Source of the DNA: a virus
Virus record (IMG/VR): IMGVR_UViG_3300027907_000044
Coordinates: 1-26,958 of that record
Direction: 5' to 3' (one strand)
Length of the DNA stretch: 26,958 nucleotides
Under the pieces are notes generated by a model. It did not search any database. It saw only the letters and a list, made by a program, of their open reading frames with translations, and was not told the DNA's origin. A program made the translations under genes and the position numbers. The first letter of the stretch is position 1. Each line of letters starts with the position of its first letter. Positions 12,348 to 22,691 of this stretch are shown here, piece by piece.

Positions 12348-14225
12348 TTAGAAGGGGCGGCCCTTCGAGTAATATTCAACCAAATCTTGTTTAATCAGGT
12401 TGAAATCGTCGTCCAGCCATAGGACATCTTCATGCAGGTGGCCTATGCGGACACGGTTCGCCATATAGAGAGTATTACCGGCCTCTCGGAATTTGGCCCA
12501 AAAATAGCTGTCGGCGTCGGTCTTGCCGTTCTCCCATTCGCCTTCGCTGTTCGGAGTGTCGAGAAACCACGGCTTTTTCAACTTCTGAATCGCGCTGACC
12601 TTGATAATGGTAAGGCCGTAGACGGTATTGTCCACCTTCGTCAAGTCTAGGCTTTTCATATCGTCCAGCGGCACGCCGCCGCCCCATTCGCCGTCCTGCT
12701 TTATGATTCCGGCGAGCGGAGGATGGTCTTTCCATCTCGACGCCTGCCATGCCGCTATGGCGTCGGCCTCCGGATAGCGGACAGCAAGCCGCAGTAATTC
12801 GTTTACGTCCCAATTCGTAAATATCGAGTCGTAATCGATCGTTATGAGATAGTCCGCGCCCGAACGTATGAGCGAGTTAAATCCGTTCTGCATGGCCGCG
12901 CCCCAATTGATCCCGGCGCCGCCCGTTCTCAGCACAAGCATTCGCGGATCGCTAAAGCCTCGCTCGATAACGCCCGCAACGGCTTGAAAGCCGAGCCTCG
13001 GAACGGACGTCACGCCCGCGACGTTATAGATCGCCTTCGCCCCTGTTTGCCTATCGTGAATATATATCGGCTTTATCTCAAGGGGCTTCTTTACCTCGGC
13101 CCTCCTCTGATACAGGGCCTCATAGATCCGTTCGACTTCGGGCTGTGGGCTGCGCTTGTAATGCCAGGTCGTCACGCGCTCGAAGCCGCGCGGTATCAGG
13201 TAATCGTCGAGGTCTTTGAGAAGACAGCCGCCCTTGTACAGCTCGAAATCGCAAGCCTCAGCGCGGATAAACTTGAAGTTATTCAGGATGCCTTCCGCGC
13301 CCTTCAGCACAAGTAATTCCGCGCCTTGCACGTCCATTATTAGCGTATCGTAGTCGGCCAGGTTTACGCTAAAGCGCTGCAAGGCCGTCTTCAGCGTAGT
13401 GCCTGTAGCCGGAAAAGAATAGTCATATTTTATATCCGGCCATATCTTCAGATGTTCTCCGAATTCAAAGACAGAAGAAGACTGGCCGCCGTTGCTGGCC
13501 ACGCAGAATTCATGCTGCCTGTCGTCTTCATCGCTAATCAGGCAATGGATCGCCCGCTGATTCGGGTAGCCGATGATGTTTGCCCCTAGCTGCGCGAACG
13601 CTTGCTGCCATGCTTCAATCCAAACGACCGGCAGGCCGTATCCGGCGTAAATGTCGCGGGCCTGCCCAGTGTTCGCCCCGACGTGGATCACGCCCTTCGA
13701 GTCCTTGATGAATTCGTAAGTCGGAGTCGGGGCATAGGTCAACTTCGGTTCCGGCTTGCGCGCTTCGAGGTTCAGCGATACTTGATAGCTCGAACAGTCC
13801 GGCGCGTCGGATTCCCATTTCTGGACGTCCACAAGCCCCGCGCCTTCGAGCAAGGCCTTTAGCTTTTCTTCGTTGAAGAAGGCCTTGTGATAATCCTCGC
13901 CGTCGCGCTGTCCGCCGAAAAGATAATGCTCAAGCCTACTGTCGCCCCTGTGTCCGTTTGAATAGGCCTTAACTATCCAATCGAAATCGGGAACGGCAAT
14001 CTTGAGCTTTCCGCCAGGCCTGAGAACGCGCGCCCATTCCCTGACCACATCGGCCACCTGACCATGTGGAAAATGTTCAAGGACGTGACTCGCGCGCACT
14101 TCATCTATCGCTCCGTCTGCGTAGTTGCGGAGCGGATAGATTTCGTGACAGGTCTTGATGTCAAGATTCTGGTAGCCCTCGATTGGAGAGCTACCAGAGC
14201 CTAGATTAAGTTTGTTTCCGATCAT
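12348..14225 (-). CDS. Three-domain enzyme: SAM methyltransferase - FkbM methyltransferase - glycosyltransferase
   Basis: Protein of 625 residues combining three catalytic modules. Residues about 5-155 are a class I methyltransferase (LNLGSGSSP at 6-14 as SAM motif I; ASHVLEHFP at 45-53; VLRPGGKLKIAVPDF near 67-81). Residues about 175-350 are FkbM-type (HVGANTG at 181-187, IEAW at 203-206, SSSVFEF at 249-255, MDVQGAELLVLKGAEGI at 297-313); FkbM enzymes O-methylate sugars. Residues about 385-620 resemble a GT-A glycosyltransferase, with a DxD-type IDYDS at 463-467 and a late HLHED at 596-600. It sits inside the virion operon, overlapping the decoration gene by 4 bases. The likely job is adding and methylating a sugar on a virion protein or on host surface glycan. 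The acceptor is unknown. Confidence 0.85.
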   Translation of the reverse strand: MIGNKLNLGSGSSPIEGYQNLDIKTCHEIYPLRNYADGAIDEVRASHVLEHFPHGQVADVVREWARVLRPGGKLKIAVPDFDWIVKAYSNGHRGDSRLEHYLFGGQRDGEDYHKAFFNEEKLKALLEGAGLVDVQKWESDAPDCSSYQVSLNLEARKPEPKLTYAPTPTYEFIKDSKGVIHVGANTGQARDIYAGYGLPVVWIEAWQQAFAQLGANIIGYPNQRAIHCLISDEDDRQHEFCVASNGGQSSSVFEFGEHLKIWPDIKYDYSFPATGTTLKTALQRFSVNLADYDTLIMDVQGAELLVLKGAEGILNNFKFIRAEACDFELYKGGCLLKDLDDYLIPRGFERVTTWHYKRSPQPEVERIYEALYQRRAEVKKPLEIKPIYIHDRQTGAKAIYNVAGVTSVPRLGFQAVAGVIERGFSDPRMLVLRTGGAGINWGAAMQNGFNSLIRSGADYLITIDYDSIFTNWDVNELLRLAVRYPEADAIAAWQASRWKDHPPLAGIIKQDGEWGGGVPLDDMKSLDLTKVDNTVYGLTIIKVSAIQKLKKPWFLDTPNSEGEWENGKTDADSYFWAKFREAGNTLYMANRVRIGHLHEDVLWLDDDFNLIKQDLVEYYSKGRPF

Positions 14226-14734: not shown

Positions 14735-15748
14735 TTATGGTGTGTATTCAACATTCATGCGGCCCTGACGGCGCCGGTTGGACATTACAAGATTTGCGTG
14801 AAGGATCATCTGAATCGTGTCGGCCATCTGGTCGAACGGGCGGATTGGATCGCTCATCACGAAATCAAAATTTTCCATCATTACAAACTTGAGATATTTG
14901 AGATTGAGCGCGAGAAAGCCGTGTCCGGCCGTAGCGGAAGATGTGGCGTTCGTGTGCGGGAAAATATGGTCATCGAAGCAGACAACGCCACCTTTAAAGA
15001 TGTAGTTTTGAAAGCCCGACCGGACCATGTCCTCATCGAAGGCCTCGCGAATGTAGCGCTCATTCGAGACAAGCGTGCCTTCCCAGGCCTCATGTACCTC
15101 TTTCGACGTGATATACATCGTCGGCCATTCGTTCTGCGATGAGCAGGAATTCGCCAGGCGGCGCATCGCGGGCGGCAATGTGGTTGGCGCTGTGGCAATG
15201 TCGCCCGGTGAGGCCTCCGTCTGATTGCGCCAGTTCGTAAAGGCCGAGCTGTCGATGTTGCCGTAAGTGCTGTTCGTTCCGGCAAAGTCGAGGCCGATGG
15301 CGAGGCCGGTCAGGTCGGCGCCGCCGTTCCCGGTCCCGTCAAGGAACAGCTCCCGGTTCACTTCGATGCGCATCGAGAGCGCCAGGCGATTTATTACGGC
15401 GTCCCACAGGTCAACCGGCGCCGTTGCCGAATTGCTGTTCTTGCCCTGTTCGAGCAAGGAAAGCCCTTCCGTTCCCGCAATGATTTTCCAGAGATATGAC
15501 GCAACGTTCGGGTCCGACTGCAATGTGACATCAAGATTCTGGAATTCCGTATACGAATGGACGTTCGTGTTCGCGGTAAGGATCGTCGGCTCGACAATCT
15601 GTGTCCCGCCTGGGCGGGTTTCAACGGCGTCCATCATCGCCATTTTCCATAGCAGGGCGATTGCTCCCACTATAGATTCCGTCACTCTCGGCGCGTAGAG
15701 AGGCAATGTGGTTGCCACTACGCGATTGAAAGAGGTATCTAAGGCCAT
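14735..15748 (-). CDS. Major capsid protein (HK97-type)
   Basis: Protein of 337 residues. Its length, its place between scaffold and decoration protein, and its composition fit an HK97-fold capsid of the type found in small podoviruses. Features include an N-terminal hydrophobic helix (SIVGAIALLWKM), a central helix region (LWDAVINRLALSMRIEVNRE), the segment AWEGTLVSNERYIREAF, and a C-terminal strand with MILHANLVMSNRRRQGRM. The start is supported by AGGAG 7 bases upstream. No protease gene or obvious prohead cleavage site is seen, so the capsid may assemble on a separate scaffold, which the next gene upstream provides. Confidence 0.85.
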   Translation of the reverse strand: MALDTSFNRVVATTLPLYAPRVTESIVGAIALLWKMAMMDAVETRPGGTQIVEPTILTANTNVHSYTEFQNLDVTLQSDPNVASYLWKIIAGTEGLSLLEQGKNSNSATAPVDLWDAVINRLALSMRIEVNRELFLDGTGNGGADLTGLAIGLDFAGTNSTYGNIDSSAFTNWRNQTEASPGDIATAPTTLPPAMRRLANSCSSQNEWPTMYITSKEVHEAWEGTLVSNERYIREAFDEDMVRSGFQNYIFKGGVVCFDDHIFPHTNATSSATAGHGFLALNLKYLKFVMMENFDFVMSDPIRPFDQMADTIQMILHANLVMSNRRRQGRMNVEYTP

Positions 15749-15767: not shown

Positions 15768-16769
15768 TTACTGTAGATTGCCCAAGGCTTGTTGTTGGGC
15801 CACCCAATGAGCCAACTTTCTAAAGCTTTTGGCTACTTCGGGTGGCGGTTCGGGCGGGCCTGTCGCCCGACCTCCGTTGTTCGATTGGTAGCGAGCGGCC
15901 TGCGCGGCCTTCTCGGCTTGCTGCGCGGGCGTAAGGATCGGACTGGTAGTCTGCCTAATTGCAGGGGACGGCGCGGGGCTGACCCCTAGGCCGGCCTGAA
16001 TCTGAGAAATCAGGTTGTAAGTCGCTTCAATGGAAACGTTTGGATTATTACCGGCCAGCTTTTGCGCGAGCGCCGACTTTTGCTGAAAGTCAGGCTCGGC
16101 GCCGTACTTGGCCTGAAGCGCAAAGGCCTCTCCGTGTTTGCGGGCGTCTTGGATCTGCGGCAAGTGGTTCCGCATTTCGGCTTGCATTTCCGCCTTCGCG
16201 GCCGCGATCGCGTCGGCCCTGACCGCTTGCGCGTAAGCCGCGCGCCCTTCTTCGTCTTCGAGGTCAAAGCGGCTGTAATCCGGTTCGGCGGGCTTCGCCG
16301 GCGCGCCGCTCAAGACCTCCATTAAAGGTCGGCCGGTCATCAAGGATTGAAGCATGGCGGTCTGCAATTGATTTTGCTGCGCAAGCTCGGCCCTTAACTG
16401 CGCGATCATTTCCGATTCGGTCGGCGCTGTAACGACTGGCGCGACTGGCGCGGCCGGGACTTCGGCGACCGGATCGGGAGGCGCTTCGATCGGTTTAAAT
16501 CGAATCTTCCCGCTCTTTTCGTTTAGGTCCATTTCGACCTTGGAGGGGTCAACGCCTGGGTAGAGCTTGTTAAAAGGCGTGCGCTGCGGGATCGGAGCTT
16601 CCGATTCGCGTTCAGCGATAAGTCTATCAACGGGCGTTGCGGCCTCGGCCGCCGCGACTTGTAGCGGCGTTTGAGCCGTACCGGCGAATTCAAGCCCGCC
16701 GCCCGGTCCTGACTTTATCGAAAACTTTTGCACCCCTAAGCCTTGTCCGGCTGGCGCTTGCACTTTCAT
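15768..16769 (-). CDS. Scaffolding protein
   Basis: Protein of 333 residues with the usual scaffold profile: Ala/Pro/Gln/Glu-rich, mostly helical, with probable coiled coil at about 120-155 and 180-230, and a small basic C-terminal region (KSFRKLAHWVAQQQ) suitable for capsid binding. The start at 16769 is preferred because GAGG lies 5 bases upstream. An extension to 16889 would overlap the upstream gene and has no ribosome site. It directly precedes the major capsid gene (19-base gap), the standard order. It has no recognisable protease domain. Confidence 0.8.
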   Translation of the reverse strand: MKVQAPAGQGLGVQKFSIKSGPGGGLEFAGTAQTPLQVAAAEAATPVDRLIAERESEAPIPQRTPFNKLYPGVDPSKVEMDLNEKSGKIRFKPIEAPPDPVAEVPAAPVAPVVTAPTESEMIAQLRAELAQQNQLQTAMLQSLMTGRPLMEVLSGAPAKPAEPDYSRFDLEDEEGRAAYAQAVRADAIAAAKAEMQAEMRNHLPQIQDARKHGEAFALQAKYGAEPDFQQKSALAQKLAGNNPNVSIEATYNLISQIQAGLGVSPAPSPAIRQTTSPILTPAQQAEKAAQAARYQSNNGGRATGPPEPPPEVAKSFRKLAHWVAQQQALGNLQ

Positions 16770-16854
16770 AGATACCTCAATGCGCGCTAAGCTGACGCGC
16801 GGATTATTGGCTCGTTTATCTTTGGTGTCAAATAGATACGCGGAAAACTTAAAG

Positions 16855-17310
16855 TTATGGTTTAAGTCTGTCGTCTTTACTTGAAACAAGCGGAGTGTCG
16901 GATAGCGGCGTCAAGGCCTCCGGTTTGAGATTCCCAAAGGCGTCAAGTAGGCCGCGCTCCGCAACGGCATTGCGCATAAACTGCTTCGACTCCTCGGCGA
17001 ATTTAGCGTCACGCGCCGCGGCGGCGGCATTCGCCATCGCCTTCATCCCATCGGCGTCCGTTCTGTCGCCGACGCGAGTCAGTTTTCTCTTTTTCATACT
17101 CTTATTAAGCTGTGATTCGGATGTGAAATATCCGTGGTTTTCAAGGACATGGCCGGCCCATAAGGAGTCAGGTCGCATTACGGGCTTCGACCATACGAAG
17201 GGCGCCGGGATGTCGCACGCTGGACAGGCGTGATGCTCATCATTCGGGAGACTATTGCGAAGTATCTCGAAGCGCCCATGGCTTTCGCACTCAAACTCGA
17301 ATAGCGGCAT
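16855..17310 (-). CDS. FmdB-like zinc-ribbon protein
   Basis: Protein of 151 residues. Residues 1-40 form a compact zinc ribbon: MPLFEFEC, with C8 and H11 as one ligand pair and C29-P-A-C32 as the other, as in FmdB-type regulatory proteins, here with His in place of one Cys. The rest is helical and charged (about 70-130). Start at 17310 gives the canonical MPxxEF N-terminus; the ribosome site is modest. It lies before the scaffold gene and after an intergenic nested hairpin. Similar small zinc-ribbon proteins are frequent in phage head modules, but their role is unknown. Confidence 0.65.
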   Translation of the reverse strand: MPLFEFECESHGRFEILRNSLPNDEHHACPACDIPAPFVWSKPVMRPDSLWAGHVLENHGYFTSESQLNKSMKKRKLTRVGDRTDADGMKAMANAAAAARDAKFAEESKQFMRNAVAERGLLDAFGNLKPEALTPLSDTPLVSSKDDRLKP

Positions 17311-17318
17311 AGATTCAC

Positions 17319-17391
17319 TTTCAGGGCCAGCGAAACGGCGGTCGGCTATTCTCAATCCGCCGACCAGGCCACACGATCGCCAGCCCTGAAA
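17319..17391 (-). promoter_or_regulatory. Intercistronic nested hairpin
   Basis: The gap before the zinc-ribbon gene holds a 9-base inverted repeat, TTTCAGGGC (17319-17327) against GCCCTGAAA (17383-17391), enclosing a second one, GGTCGG / CCGACC. On the minus-strand mRNA the 3' outer arm overlaps the weak purine-rich ribosome site of the zinc-ribbon gene. It has no T-tract, so it is more likely a translation or RNA-stability element than a terminator. Inferred from pairing by eye. Confidence 0.5.
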
Positions 17392-17393
17392 CC

Positions 17394-17537
17394 TTAGTCT
17401 TCGGGATAAAGCGTTTCGATCTGGTCGCGGACCTTGAGAAGCGCGCGTTTTAACTCTTCGGCCTTTTCGGGATTTTTCACCGCTTGTTTAATCGCGGTTA
17501 AAACGACCGACACGGCCATGCTGAAAAAGAAGTCCAT
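17394..17537 (-). CDS. Small 47-residue helical protein
   Basis: A short gene below usual length cut-offs. The protein starts MDFFFSMAVSVV, has a hydrophobic N-terminal helix (about 3-20) and then a charged amphipathic helix (KNPEKAEELKRALLKVRDQIE). GGGAGG lies 3 bases before the stop-adjacent ATG and inside the end of the Acb2-like gene, which its start directly abuts. It is thus cotranslated with that gene. Comparable short proteins occur between portal and scaffold genes of other phages, but no function is known. Confidence 0.65.
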   Translation of the reverse strand: MDFFFSMAVSVVLTAIKQAVKNPEKAEELKRALLKVRDQIETLYPED

Positions 17538-17753
17538 TTAAAACCTCCCTTCAAGCGCAACGCAGTGATTAGCCTGCATGCGCGCTTCGGACAGTTTGCG
17601 AATAGCAACCGTCTTGCCTGGTCCTTCAGGTAGTACGGCGTTAAGCATCTGCGCCGAGGCTAGAAACGCGGCATTGATCTGATCGTAGACCGCGGCCTGC
17701 TCGTTCGTCGCCGCGTGATAGCTGAAAATCTCTTTTAGTTGGTCGTCTGTCAT
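17538..17753 (-). CDS. Acb2/Tad1-hairpin-like protein (candidate anti-CBASS/anti-Thoeris sponge)
   Basis: Protein of 71 residues built of two helices. From Thr16-Asn17 onward it follows the family signature: TN, a long helix (18-40), VLPEG at 40-44 with K47, then VAIRKLSEARMQAN at 49-62. This resembles the conserved P-x-G...K...(A)L.KLEEA..WANAA motif of the Acb2/Tad1 hairpin family. Known Acb2 proteins form hexamers that bind cyclic di- and trinucleotides and so block CBASS; Tad1 binds the gcADPR signal of Thoeris. Here the usual Trp is Gln60 and one Glu is Ser55, so activity is not assured. AAGGA lies about 5 bases upstream. It is placed 7 bases after the portal gene, so it would be made late or as part of the whole operon. 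Confidence 0.65.
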   Translation of the reverse strand: MTDDQLKEIFSYHAATNEQAAVYDQINAAFLASAQMLNAVLPEGPGKTVAIRKLSEARMQANHCVALEGRF

Positions 17754-17760
17754 GGTTTCC

Positions 17761-19713
17761 TTACATTATTTGGTTTGCCCCGCCGAGGATCTGCATGAGC
17801 AGGTCTTGTTCGGAGAGGCCTTCTCCCGGCTGGCCGACTGACGGCTGACCGGGAACCTGTTGCGGCGCGAGCTGGCCAGCGAGCGCGGGCGGAAGGCCTG
17901 CTCCCGCGCCAGCGGGCGCCAGGGTTTGCTGTAGTTCAGGTTGAATCGAGAGCGCGGGCGTAAAGAAGCGCCCTACGTCTTGATAGTCGGGGAAGGATTT
18001 GAGAAGCCACGCGAAAAGCTCGACGAAGTTGATTCTGACAGGCGATCCCGATTGAGCCATAAGCGGGTCGAACTGGGCGGCGACTTGCGCAACTTGCGTC
18101 TTTTGCTGGCGCTCAACGTCTGGATTCGTCTTCGGGGCCGAAAAGTAGCTGACCGTGACGTCCGTTTCGGCCTGTATCTCAGCGTGGGAGTATTCCCGCC
18201 ATTCCGTACTGAGAAGCCCTACAATCTGCGCCACATCGCTCTGAACGCGATTGGCCTTTAAATGCTGAAGGACTTGGCGGGCGATCTCAGTTACGCCGGC
18301 CTCAACGTTCGAGATTTTATCGTCCGCCTTCAGGCGCATCACGTTGACTTGCGTGGTAACGACGCCGGCCGGCGTCCGGCTTGCGGGCGTTTCGCCCTGG
18401 AATATCGCGTCGGCGCCCGTCGCCTTCGCGCCGTCCTGCGCAACGGATTGCTCCAAAATTAAGTTATCGCGGTTGAGCTGCGGATTGTCGATCGCGAACA
18501 GGTCGCCGTTCCGCTCCATCCGTATCACGCTCAGATTCGGCAGGCTTGCGAAATCGTCTAGGGCTTCCTTTGCTACGCCCGCCGTCGCGCCGTACATGTT
18601 CTTTTGCGCTCGAACGTTTTGTATTTGCTGCGTGCGGATACGATTTGTCTGAAGCTGCGAATCCTTGAGCTGGCGCGCTACGCCGATTGGATAGAGCAGG
18701 CCTTCAGCGCGAAGAAACTGGATCATCACGAACGGAAGGCCGTCAAGATACGGGTAGCGCCACGGCTCGACGTCAAGCGGATACGGCAGGCCCTCGGCCA
18801 TTGTCATTACCTGACGATACCCCTTATCCCATATCTCCCATATGGCGATAGAGGATTCTTCAGGAATCCTGACCGCTAGGTCTTTGCCGAACATTCCGCC
18901 CGCGCTGAATCGCGCGTCATTTCTGAACGCTGACCGGCTTGTCAGGTTGTGGGATGCGGCGCCGGATTCGATGAGCCTCGTCACTTTTGGATCATAGCGC
19001 TTGTTGGCAACAACATTTGCGATTGGAATCCAAGTGCGGCGCGCCGCCCACCGGCCTGTTCGTGGTGTGCCGTCCCGGCCGGTCAGGTCGTGAAGGAAAT
19101 CATGCGGATCGACCCATTCCACAACGCAGGCGTCTCGCTTTACGTAGTCCCGATACTCGATATTGCCGTGGGACTTGCGGCGGGCTTCGTCTACTTCGAC
19201 CACGTAGGACGTTTCCGCTATTCCGTGGCCGAGTACCACAACGTCATCGACTACCTTTTTGACCTGTTCGGTCATCTCCCGTTCGGTCCACTCGTAGTTG
19301 AGTTGGGACGTGTGGATCTCGGCCGCGTTCACGTCGCCGGGCCGATTCGGCTTAGGCTTGACCTTGAATTCGATCTTGCCGTTGAGCAGGAACGGCATGT
19401 AGGCCGACGCGATGGTCTGAACGATGTTGTTCGTATAGACACTCGTAATCGTGTCGCTGTACAGATCCCATCCGTTTTTCCCGGTATCTTCAAACTGCCA
19501 CTGACGGCCATTAAACCAATTGCGATAGGCCGCCCAATGCCGATCTCCGTTGTCGGATTCCATTCGCATATGGAGCGTTTTCATCAGACGCGACATCCAA
19601 AGCGGGCCGTCTTTTTCGGCGTCCCCGGTTTCTTCTACAGTTGGCGCCGAAGCGCTATTGACGCGCATCCTATCGATGGTATTTCCGCTTGGCGGTCTGT
19701 ACTTACGTGGCAT
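17761..19713 (-). CDS. Portal protein
   Basis: Protein of 650 residues forming the ring at the capsid vertex through which DNA enters and leaves. Evidence is size, position directly after TerL, and sequence: an N-terminal mixed region with RNWFNGRQW and VYTNNIVQTIASAYMPFLL, a central segment with WVDPHDFLHDLTGRDG and GRWAARRTWIP, and a helical part with QLKDSQLQTNRIRTQQIQN (stem/clip type). The last about 50 residues are Pro/Gln/Gly-rich and probably disordered. GGAG lies 7 bases before the ATG. Three bases separate it from the TerL stop. Confidence 0.85.
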   Translation of the reverse strand: MPRKYRPPSGNTIDRMRVNSASAPTVEETGDAEKDGPLWMSRLMKTLHMRMESDNGDRHWAAYRNWFNGRQWQFEDTGKNGWDLYSDTITSVYTNNIVQTIASAYMPFLLNGKIEFKVKPKPNRPGDVNAAEIHTSQLNYEWTEREMTEQVKKVVDDVVVLGHGIAETSYVVEVDEARRKSHGNIEYRDYVKRDACVVEWVDPHDFLHDLTGRDGTPRTGRWAARRTWIPIANVVANKRYDPKVTRLIESGAASHNLTSRSAFRNDARFSAGGMFGKDLAVRIPEESSIAIWEIWDKGYRQVMTMAEGLPYPLDVEPWRYPYLDGLPFVMIQFLRAEGLLYPIGVARQLKDSQLQTNRIRTQQIQNVRAQKNMYGATAGVAKEALDDFASLPNLSVIRMERNGDLFAIDNPQLNRDNLILEQSVAQDGAKATGADAIFQGETPASRTPAGVVTTQVNVMRLKADDKISNVEAGVTEIARQVLQHLKANRVQSDVAQIVGLLSTEWREYSHAEIQAETDVTVSYFSAPKTNPDVERQQKTQVAQVAAQFDPLMAQSGSPVRINFVELFAWLLKSFPDYQDVGRFFTPALSIQPELQQTLAPAGAGAGLPPALAGQLAPQQVPGQPSVGQPGEGLSEQDLLMQILGGANQIM

Positions 19714-19716
19714 GAG

Positions 19717-21594
19717 CTATCTCCTTTTGAAAACTCCGCGCTTTTTCAGGTCGCCTATCGAGCCGGGCGGCGGCTGTGGTTTCGGTATGTAGTAGTGGAC
19801 TTTTAGCGATATGTTGACGCCGATCATTGCGCACATCGCTAGATCGTCGTTGTATCCAGGCTCAGCGCCAAGCTCGCCATCTTCCATTTCAACGAAATGC
19901 TCAAGCTGTTCAAGTAAAAGCGGCGTCCTAAGTAGGATCTCGCCCTCTCTAATGCGGTAATCCAGGCCGGCTACGATTGTCGCCTTGTTTGAATCGTTCG
20001 TGACAAATCCAGGCTCGTCAGCGGGCTTCTTGTCGTAAGCGTTAAACTTGAAATAAAGCCGTTCGTATTTCAGATCCTTGTGCAGTTTCAGGCAGATGAC
20101 GAAGCCGCCCCGCTCATTTCTTTCAGGGCCGAGCAGGGCCATGTTGTAGAAGGTCGCGACGTAATAGAGCAGTTCGGCGAATATATCCGGCTTTGTAATC
20201 TTGCTATAGGACGCGACCTCGCGCAGATACGGCGATTCTTCAGAGACGGCCAACACTAGAAACGCCGAGGGGTCGCTATTCGGATTGCCGAGGGCCGGAT
20301 CGGCCGCGACAACATATTGCACGCCGTCTTGGCGGCTCTCGTAAACCGCAATCGGCCCGTATTCGTCGGGCTTAAACTTCGAGGAAATGTCCTGATCGTC
20401 AGGATTGTGAATGTAGTTATAGCGGCGCGGCTGTAGGCCTTCTTCTTCGACGAGTCGGCGCATCAGGGCAATTGAGCGCAGATCGAAACAATTGCGGCCC
20501 GTTGCCTCGAAGCCTTGTTGCGGTGTTAATGGAAATTCCCTACGGAAAACCGCCTTGTCTCCACGGCAAGGGCCGTCGATATATTGCCTGCGCCAGTTCA
20601 GCCGCGCCACCAATTCCCGGTCGGCCCACTTGTCGCCCCATTTTTCGTAAAGCTCCGGATACCATTCAATGAGCTGTTTTCTGATTACCTTGGATTCGGC
20701 AAGCTCGTTGCCCCATCTGGTCGGCACGCCGGACGCTTCCTCGGCTTCGCACAGTTCCAGGGTCGCGCCTTCAGGCAGCGGCGCCCGGTACTCGTCAGAT
20801 CCGACAGCGGGGAAGAATACCGGCCGATAGCCGCCCTGTCCTTTAACCGACTCATCCCACATTTTCGCGATTTCGTTTAGGCCATTTGGAGTCGTCTCTA
20901 TAATGACAATCGAACCGGGCAGCATTGGAACGGCGTGCGCCAGCGAGCTAAGCAGGGTATTTACGCTGACCTTTGGCTTCTGGTCCATGTAGAAGGCGGC
21001 TTCGGACAAGTGAACATATTGAATCGTGTAGGACCGGCCGACGCTGACCTTTTTACAGGTAAAGAACATCATTCGGCTATCCTGACCCTTGCCAGGCTTG
21101 CGGTCCCTGCGCGTCCCGCCGCGCGCTGTCGGATTGCCGAAATTGACCAGATTTTTATTCTCGTTCTTGACGGCCGGCGTCAGAAGCGGGTCGGCTTCTT
21201 CCATTGCGGCCCGAATGCGGCTCGAAAAATTCGTGACCGATTCGAGATCCTGAGTGATTACAAGGGCGTTTCGATTCGGCCGCAGCGTTATTAGCCAGTA
21301 ATAGAAGAATAGAATTAGCGTCGAGACGCCGCCCTGTCGAATCTTATCGACCAGGATTCTGACCGGGACGCCTTTGGCCAATTCTTCGAGGATTATTTCA
21401 AGCAGCCGAAGCTGGATCCGATTGAGGATAAACGGGACCGATCGGCCATCTTTTGTAGTGATGGTGATGTTGCAGGCGCAGTAGACCGGGAAATCCCAGT
21501 CTCGCAGATCCGCGAAACGCCTATCAACATAGGCGTCTCCCTCGGCCTGGTAGGCCTGATACTCCCGCATGATCCTCGCCGGATCGACGATCAT
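19717..21594 (-). CDS. terL: Terminase large subunit
   Basis: Protein of 625 residues, the ATPase/nuclease motor that packages DNA. The ATPase half shows a Walker A of the terminase type, KIRQGGVST (84-92), and a Walker B region YVHLSEAA (193-200), followed by a coupling-like IIETTPNG (231-238). The nuclease half has the acidic residues expected of the RNase H fold: D432 in VAADPALG, E491 in GPERNE, and D583/D584 in YNDDLAM. Start supported by GGA 5 bases upstream. It follows the 86-aa DUF1737-like gene, not TerS directly. Confidence 0.9.
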   Translation of the reverse strand: MIVDPARIMREYQAYQAEGDAYVDRRFADLRDWDFPVYCACNITITTKDGRSVPFILNRIQLRLLEIILEELAKGVPVRILVDKIRQGGVSTLILFFYYWLITLRPNRNALVITQDLESVTNFSSRIRAAMEEADPLLTPAVKNENKNLVNFGNPTARGGTRRDRKPGKGQDSRMMFFTCKKVSVGRSYTIQYVHLSEAAFYMDQKPKVSVNTLLSSLAHAVPMLPGSIVIIETTPNGLNEIAKMWDESVKGQGGYRPVFFPAVGSDEYRAPLPEGATLELCEAEEASGVPTRWGNELAESKVIRKQLIEWYPELYEKWGDKWADRELVARLNWRRQYIDGPCRGDKAVFRREFPLTPQQGFEATGRNCFDLRSIALMRRLVEEEGLQPRRYNYIHNPDDQDISSKFKPDEYGPIAVYESRQDGVQYVVAADPALGNPNSDPSAFLVLAVSEESPYLREVASYSKITKPDIFAELLYYVATFYNMALLGPERNERGGFVICLKLHKDLKYERLYFKFNAYDKKPADEPGFVTNDSNKATIVAGLDYRIREGEILLRTPLLLEQLEHFVEMEDGELGAEPGYNDDLAMCAMIGVNISLKVHYYIPKPQPPPGSIGDLKKRGVFKRR

Positions 21595-22618: not shown

Positions 22619-22647
22619 ATAGTGGGGAAACTAATGCGCGTTGTCAA
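22619..22647 (-). promoter_or_regulatory. Late-operon promoter
   Basis: On the minus strand a perfect TTGACA (22647-22642), a 17-base spacer and CACTAT (22624-22619; 3 of 6 matches, at the conserved A, A and T) form a sigma70-like promoter. Transcription would start near 22612, only about three bases before the ATG of the 105-aa HTH gene, so the message is predicted to be leaderless. It stands directly after a terminator that isolates it from the upstream small genes. Confidence 0.65.
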
Positions 22648-22662
22648 GGAATGCTGAGATTA

Positions 22663-22691
22663 AAACAAAATGGCCGCCTTTACGGGCGGCC
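22663..22691 (-). terminator. Terminator of the leftward small-gene operon
   Basis: A perfect 7-base stem GGCCGCC (22672-22678) / GGCGGCC (22685-22691) with a 6-base loop is followed on the minus strand by ATTTTGTTTT. It lies about 35 bases after the stop of the 76-aa gene and just before the late promoter. Confidence 0.75.

Follow-up and report, generated by a model that had tools for sequence, protein, structure and literature searches.

The gene described here encodes a further member of the known Acb2 family, from uncultured (by inference soil) phages. It lies on the minus strand of a 26,958-base virus record, the whole stretch of DNA that we analysed and call the window, and its product has 71 residues (MTDDQLKEIFSYHAATNEQAAVYDQINAAFLASAQMLNAVLPEGPGKTVAIRKLSEARMQANHCVALEGRF). 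The best reading, and one we consider likely to be right, is that of a compact Acb2-type nucleotide sponge, carried as cargo and made in the packaging operon. What is new here is that two aromatic positions are altered and that the gene neighbourhood, though unusual, recurs. The sponge reading draws on family membership, predicted protomer fold, purifying selection, exchange between phages and position in the terminase–portal region; by analogy with the family, the protein would also form a hexamer, bind a ligand and counter CBASS. This adds a lineage of uncultured phages, from soil by inference, to the range of a proven counter-defence family.

The features of the region are as follows.

17538–17753, minus strand: acb2-like gene, 71 aa, Acb2/Tad1 hairpin family (PF24729); from the ORF, Pfam, PHROG, dN/dS, AlphaFold2 and BFVD
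17761–19713, minus strand: portal protein gene; PHROG portal phrog_156, E 5e-9
17394–17537, minus strand: 47-aa ORF directly after the acb2 stop; from sequence and comparison with contigs L042, L043 and L045
17311–17399, minus strand: conserved hairpin with covariation, immediately 5' of the zinc-ribbon gene; from covariation and a model search
16855–17310, minus strand: FmdB-like zinc-ribbon gene, bounding the variable slot on its downstream side; conserved in relatives, with Pfam Zn_ribbon_8 just under the cut-off (E 5e-8)
16803–16831, minus strand: P2, sigma-70-like promoter TTGACA-17-AATAAT before scaffold and major capsid protein (MCP); conserved in close relatives
15768–16769, minus strand: putative scaffold gene; from synteny and because it lies between portal and MCP
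14735–15748, minus strand: putative MCP gene; from synteny and conservation in relatives
19717–21594, minus strand: putative large terminase gene, upstream in the portal–acb2 unit; from synteny
22619–22647, minus strand: P1, promoter-like TTGACA-17-CACTAT heading the terminase–portal–acb2 unit; conserved, below the consensus cut-off
22672–22691, minus strand: terminator-like hairpin just upstream of P1; the total of such sites is not above chance

Family and predicted fold

The 71-aa ORF is a real gene. Its span had been given exactly in the initial annotation, and its strand is minus. Translation starts at an ATG at 17753, 7 nt from the portal stop and with an AGGA ribosome-binding site 5 nt upstream; the stop codon abuts the ATG of the 47-aa ORF (TAA ATG). 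The gene evolves under purifying selection: across seven close homologues dN/dS is about 0.1 (range 0.04–0.15, where dS could be estimated).

The protein carries the hairpin signature (Y12, T16-N17, P42-E-G-P-G-K47, then K53-L-S-E-A...A61-N62) on which it had first been assigned to the Acb2/Tad1 family. This resemblance is above chance. Besides the low dN/dS, the Pfam profile PF24729 (Acb2_Tad1_hairpin) matches at 35.5 bits and E 1.1e-8, against a curated cut-off of 27 bits, and phrog_1454 matches at E 4.8e-14. On the same Pfam profile, the controls T4 Vs.4 (the T4 Acb2) and Acb2 homolog 43 (9PTQ) score 71.4 and 36.6 bits. The protein has low identity to every solved Acb2. When the 71-aa sequence alone was searched against solved structures, nothing matched; profile searches picked up Acb2 homolog 43, but at no better than E 0.4 and 0.013. 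Acb2 homologues occur and are annotated in many phages (PMC13348362). Our tblastn search of a phage collection found relatives at 32–41% identity, among them hairpin-family ORFs of Mycobacterium phages Phabba and Myrna, Lactococcus phage 1706 and cyanophage S-2L (35–41%). The Phabba and 1706 ORFs are listed in BFVD as hairpin-domain proteins and the S-2L ORF is above the Pfam cut-off. Some of these ORFs are longer than ours and they have other neighbourhoods, except that the S-2L ORF also sits among structural (tail) genes. In bacterial and archaeal genomes a scan turned up no relative, and PADLOC has no model covering the protein.

An AlphaFold2 model built from an alignment of 22 homologues (pLDDT 91, pTM 0.78) has helices at residues 3–9, 17–40 and 45–66. 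Known Acb2 protomers consist of one short N-terminal helix and two long antiparallel helices (PMC10419184), and the short helix plus two-helix hairpin, predicted with high confidence, corresponds to this fold. Most of the nearest viral models in BFVD carry the name Acb2/Tad1 hairpin protein (probability 1.0). VIA-align placed T4 Vs.4 with cGAMP second among solved structures (Z 6.3, 3.1 Å over 56 residues), behind a de novo design (Z 6.5); two-helix hairpins being common and the fold matches weak in absolute terms, we take this ranking as support rather than proof. Foldseek found no significant match in the PDB, as expected of a short hairpin, so family identity rests on Pfam, PHROGs and BFVD. 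According to the initial annotation, the family call would fall if there were no significant profile match and a predicted structure unlike Acb2; it withstands this, with a significant match and, at the level of the protomer, an Acb2-like prediction.

Tad1 shares the hairpin domain in Pfam, but the structural match to CbTad1 is weak (Z 4.6), and we reject Tad1 identity: the 71 residues are all helical, the portal stop lies directly upstream and there is no N-terminal β-sheet domain. In Tad1 this domain helps to form the gcADPR pocket (PMC12043709). Since it is absent from the predicted structure, Tad1-type binding of gcADPR is unlikely. The closer likeness is to Acb2 itself (T4 Vs.4, Pseudomonas PaMx33/PaP2 p26), with which the protein shares the Pfam hairpin family, the three-helix protomer, an equivalent of T4 Tyr8 and a small stand-alone phage gene; it differs in being shorter (71 versus 88–94 aa). 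Acb2 homolog 43 (76 aa) is similarly compact, shares the LPEG-x-x-K turn and has nearly the same Pfam score.

A variable slot and exchange between phage types

On the minus strand the genes run HTH-like, terS-like, small ORF, terL, portal, acb2, 47-aa ORF, hairpin, FmdB-like zinc ribbon, scaffold and MCP; the putative MCP and large terminase have no Pfam match. The gene had been described as lying between portal and scaffold. The portal is indeed its neighbour, but the scaffold is not adjacent: the 47-aa ORF and the FmdB-like gene intervene. No promoter-like site was seen at the portal–acb2 junction, so acb2 probably belongs to the terminase–portal unit rather than to the capsid unit. The T4 gene, by contrast, lies in the vs region.

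The space between portal and FmdB-like gene is a variable slot. In a lineage of 13 contigs with portals at least 69% identical, the window included, acb2 is present in four. It is absent from the other nine, cleanly so from four whose portals are 87–94% identical. The slot holds acb2 and the 47-aa ORF in the window and L042; acb2 with 78-aa and 52-aa ORFs in L040 and L041; a different, 61-aa ORF with the 47-aa ORF in L043; the 52-aa type alone in L044, L048, L059, L060 and L061; and a secreted, β-barrel-like protein of 184–194 aa in L047 and L049. L045, with the 47-aa ORF alone, represents the empty form: this ORF follows the portal stop directly, in the place of acb2.

The gene has also moved between phage types. 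Two other types have homologues, 70–83% identical, in their head cassettes. L002 (L003 is identical) carries an 83% identical acb2 in the same place, yet its portal, MCP, terL and zinc ribbon are just 34–40% identical to those of the window. Correspondingly, dN between L002 and the window is 0.11 for acb2 and 0.61–0.68 for the neighbouring genes, and dS is 1.15 for acb2 against 2.5–3.1 (saturated) for the neighbours. The reverse is seen in L042, where portal (92%) and MCP (96%) are close to those of the window but acb2 is just 69% identical. In L006, L007 and L009 a 70% identical acb2 stands behind an unrelated MCP (phrog_283) and a head–tail adaptor (phrog_477). The acb2 gene tree joins L021 to L009 across phage types (82/88). 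A test of this tree against the backbone was borderline and suggestive only (AU p 0.066, 213 columns), so the case for exchange rests on the contrast in dN and dS and on presence and absence. Similar acb2 genes in divergent backbones, together with the variable slot, lead us to conclude that acb2 is accessory, horizontally exchanged cargo and not a structural part. As such it occupies a defined portal–FmdB-like slot, whose other small genes become counter-defence candidates.

Ligand site, timing and alternative readings

Residue correspondences were mapped through the columns of the PF24729 profile. Tyr12, nearly invariant among the 22 homologues, shares a column with T4 Tyr8, mutation of which disrupts cyclic dinucleotide binding (PMC12657218). 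T4 Phe82 stacks on a nucleotide of the ligand (PMC12657218); its column holds Ala66 here, so the stacking Phe has no equivalent. The two deviations pointed out in the initial annotation are real: Ser55 stands at the position of T4 Lys71 and Gln60 at that of T4 Trp76, the family Trp. With Phe82 replaced by Ala66 and the family Trp by Gln60, binding of the known dinucleotides may be poor, and it is plausible that the ligand spectrum differs. PaMx33 Lys26 presumably aligns with Asn27 here, and PaMx33 Arg67 would have no Arg at the corresponding place. Small or polar residues are common to the close homologues (Ala or Ser at 66, Gln or Ala at 60), so the remark on altered positions holds for the whole group. 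With its two lost aromatics, the protein lends itself to testing which residues govern the choice of ligand in minimal sponges.

These replacements allow a reading, possible though short of an even chance, in which the Acb2 fold and oligomer are kept and the ligand has changed, for example to cyclic trinucleotides only or to an undescribed signal. It would agree with the shared residues at 60 and 66, with an almost invariant GPGKTVAIRKL block among the close homologues and with Arg52 and Thr48, invariant in 22 of 22. Yet most homologues keep Tyr12, and Acb2 homolog 43 also has Ala in the Phe82 column, so that this residue varies within the family; homolog 43 differs from our protein in retaining an aromatic, Phe, at position 60. 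A broader proposal we regard as unlikely: that these proteins form an Acb2 clade of their own, its ligand spectrum shifted, exchanged between unrelated phages and repeatedly installed in head-assembly or packaging operons, where the sponge would be produced along with the terminase RNA and capsid proteins that trigger CBASS or Thoeris.

Other readings start from the location of the gene. A head-assembly factor, such as a small scaffold or portal cofactor that merely resembles the hairpin family, would account for the recurrence in head cassettes. It is very improbable given the significant PF24729 match, a sequence history unlinked from that of portal and MCP, and clean absence despite closely related portals; absence from nine of 13 contigs of the lineage led us to reject a structural or assembly role. 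We assign a very small probability to a sponge packaged in the head or bound to the portal, ejected with the DNA and protective at entry. The only argument for it is location, between portal and scaffold (window, L002) or after MCP and adaptor (L006, L007, L009). Head packaging had been suggested in the initial annotation, and it is unsupported: no packaging motif is known or seen, most phages of the lineage lack acb2 and the same slot holds several unrelated small ORFs. A decaying or non-functional gene is scarcely credible. Nothing was found in its favour, and we rejected a pseudogene on account of purifying selection (dN/dS ∼0.1), ORFs intact in all homologues and a good ribosome-binding site.

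The location is understandable without packaging, because the phage products known to trigger CBASS and Thoeris belong to the head or the terminase. One CBASS sensor has the prohead protease as an interaction partner (PMC12409349), RNA from the terminase genes activates staphylococcal CdnE03 (PMC10686824), and the major capsid protein does the same for Thoeris (PMC11312562). Phages that lack acb2 evade CBASS through capsid mutation (PMC10419184). These triggers, and a terminase–portal unit behind a conserved promoter-like site, weaken the paradox of an unusual late location for a protein needed early. For the Acb2-type sponge that we favour, we envisage that the 71-aa hairpin protein would form the Acb2 oligomer and sequester the cyclic-oligonucleotide alarm signals of CBASS-like systems; effectors would then stay inactive and the cell would live long enough for the phage. 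T4 Vs.4 is such an anti-CBASS sponge (PMC12657218). Encoded beside terminase and head genes, the sponge would be present when terminase RNA or head proteins trigger the alarm, arriving together with the trigger from a shared transcript region. If it is made in this way, that would explain why a counter-defence gene lives in a head operon.

Other elements of the region

Several further elements deserve mention. P1 precedes the start of the HTH gene by just a few bases, a spacing that could reflect a leaderless transcript or an operator for the HTH protein. The 47-aa ORF is replaced in relatives by an unrelated ORF of 52–62 aa (MKLKLILSMLLP...), and both types are hydrophobic at the N-terminus and amphipathic in the tail. 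The secreted β-barrel-like slot protein of about 190 aa has a signal peptide and no Pfam match (L047:6171–6725 and L049:5916–6500; in L002:5414–5992 it stands beside acb2). It could be a superinfection-exclusion or surface-change factor.

The hairpin at 17311–17399 is long and conserved and ends directly at the FmdB-like start codon. Counterparts are found at L040:6570–6659, L042:6315–6400, L053:5329–5415, L058:3597–3686, L052:1926–2013 and L062:5330–5416. Two-sided compensatory changes occur at nine of 25 pairs (six sequences), a model search gave strong scores at this place only, and no Rfam family corresponds to it. Translational control or an RNase III site is possible.

In cyanophage S-2L (MW334946.1), the hairpin-family ORF at L012:4995–5192 is unannotated, lies between tail genes and scores 62.9 bits on the Acb2/Tad1 hairpin profile. 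The structural cassette of the window also encodes, at 12348–14225 on the minus strand, a 625-aa protein with two methyltransferase domains, Methyltransf_11 and FkbM, and a further C-terminal domain, which is conserved in several relatives and missing in others.
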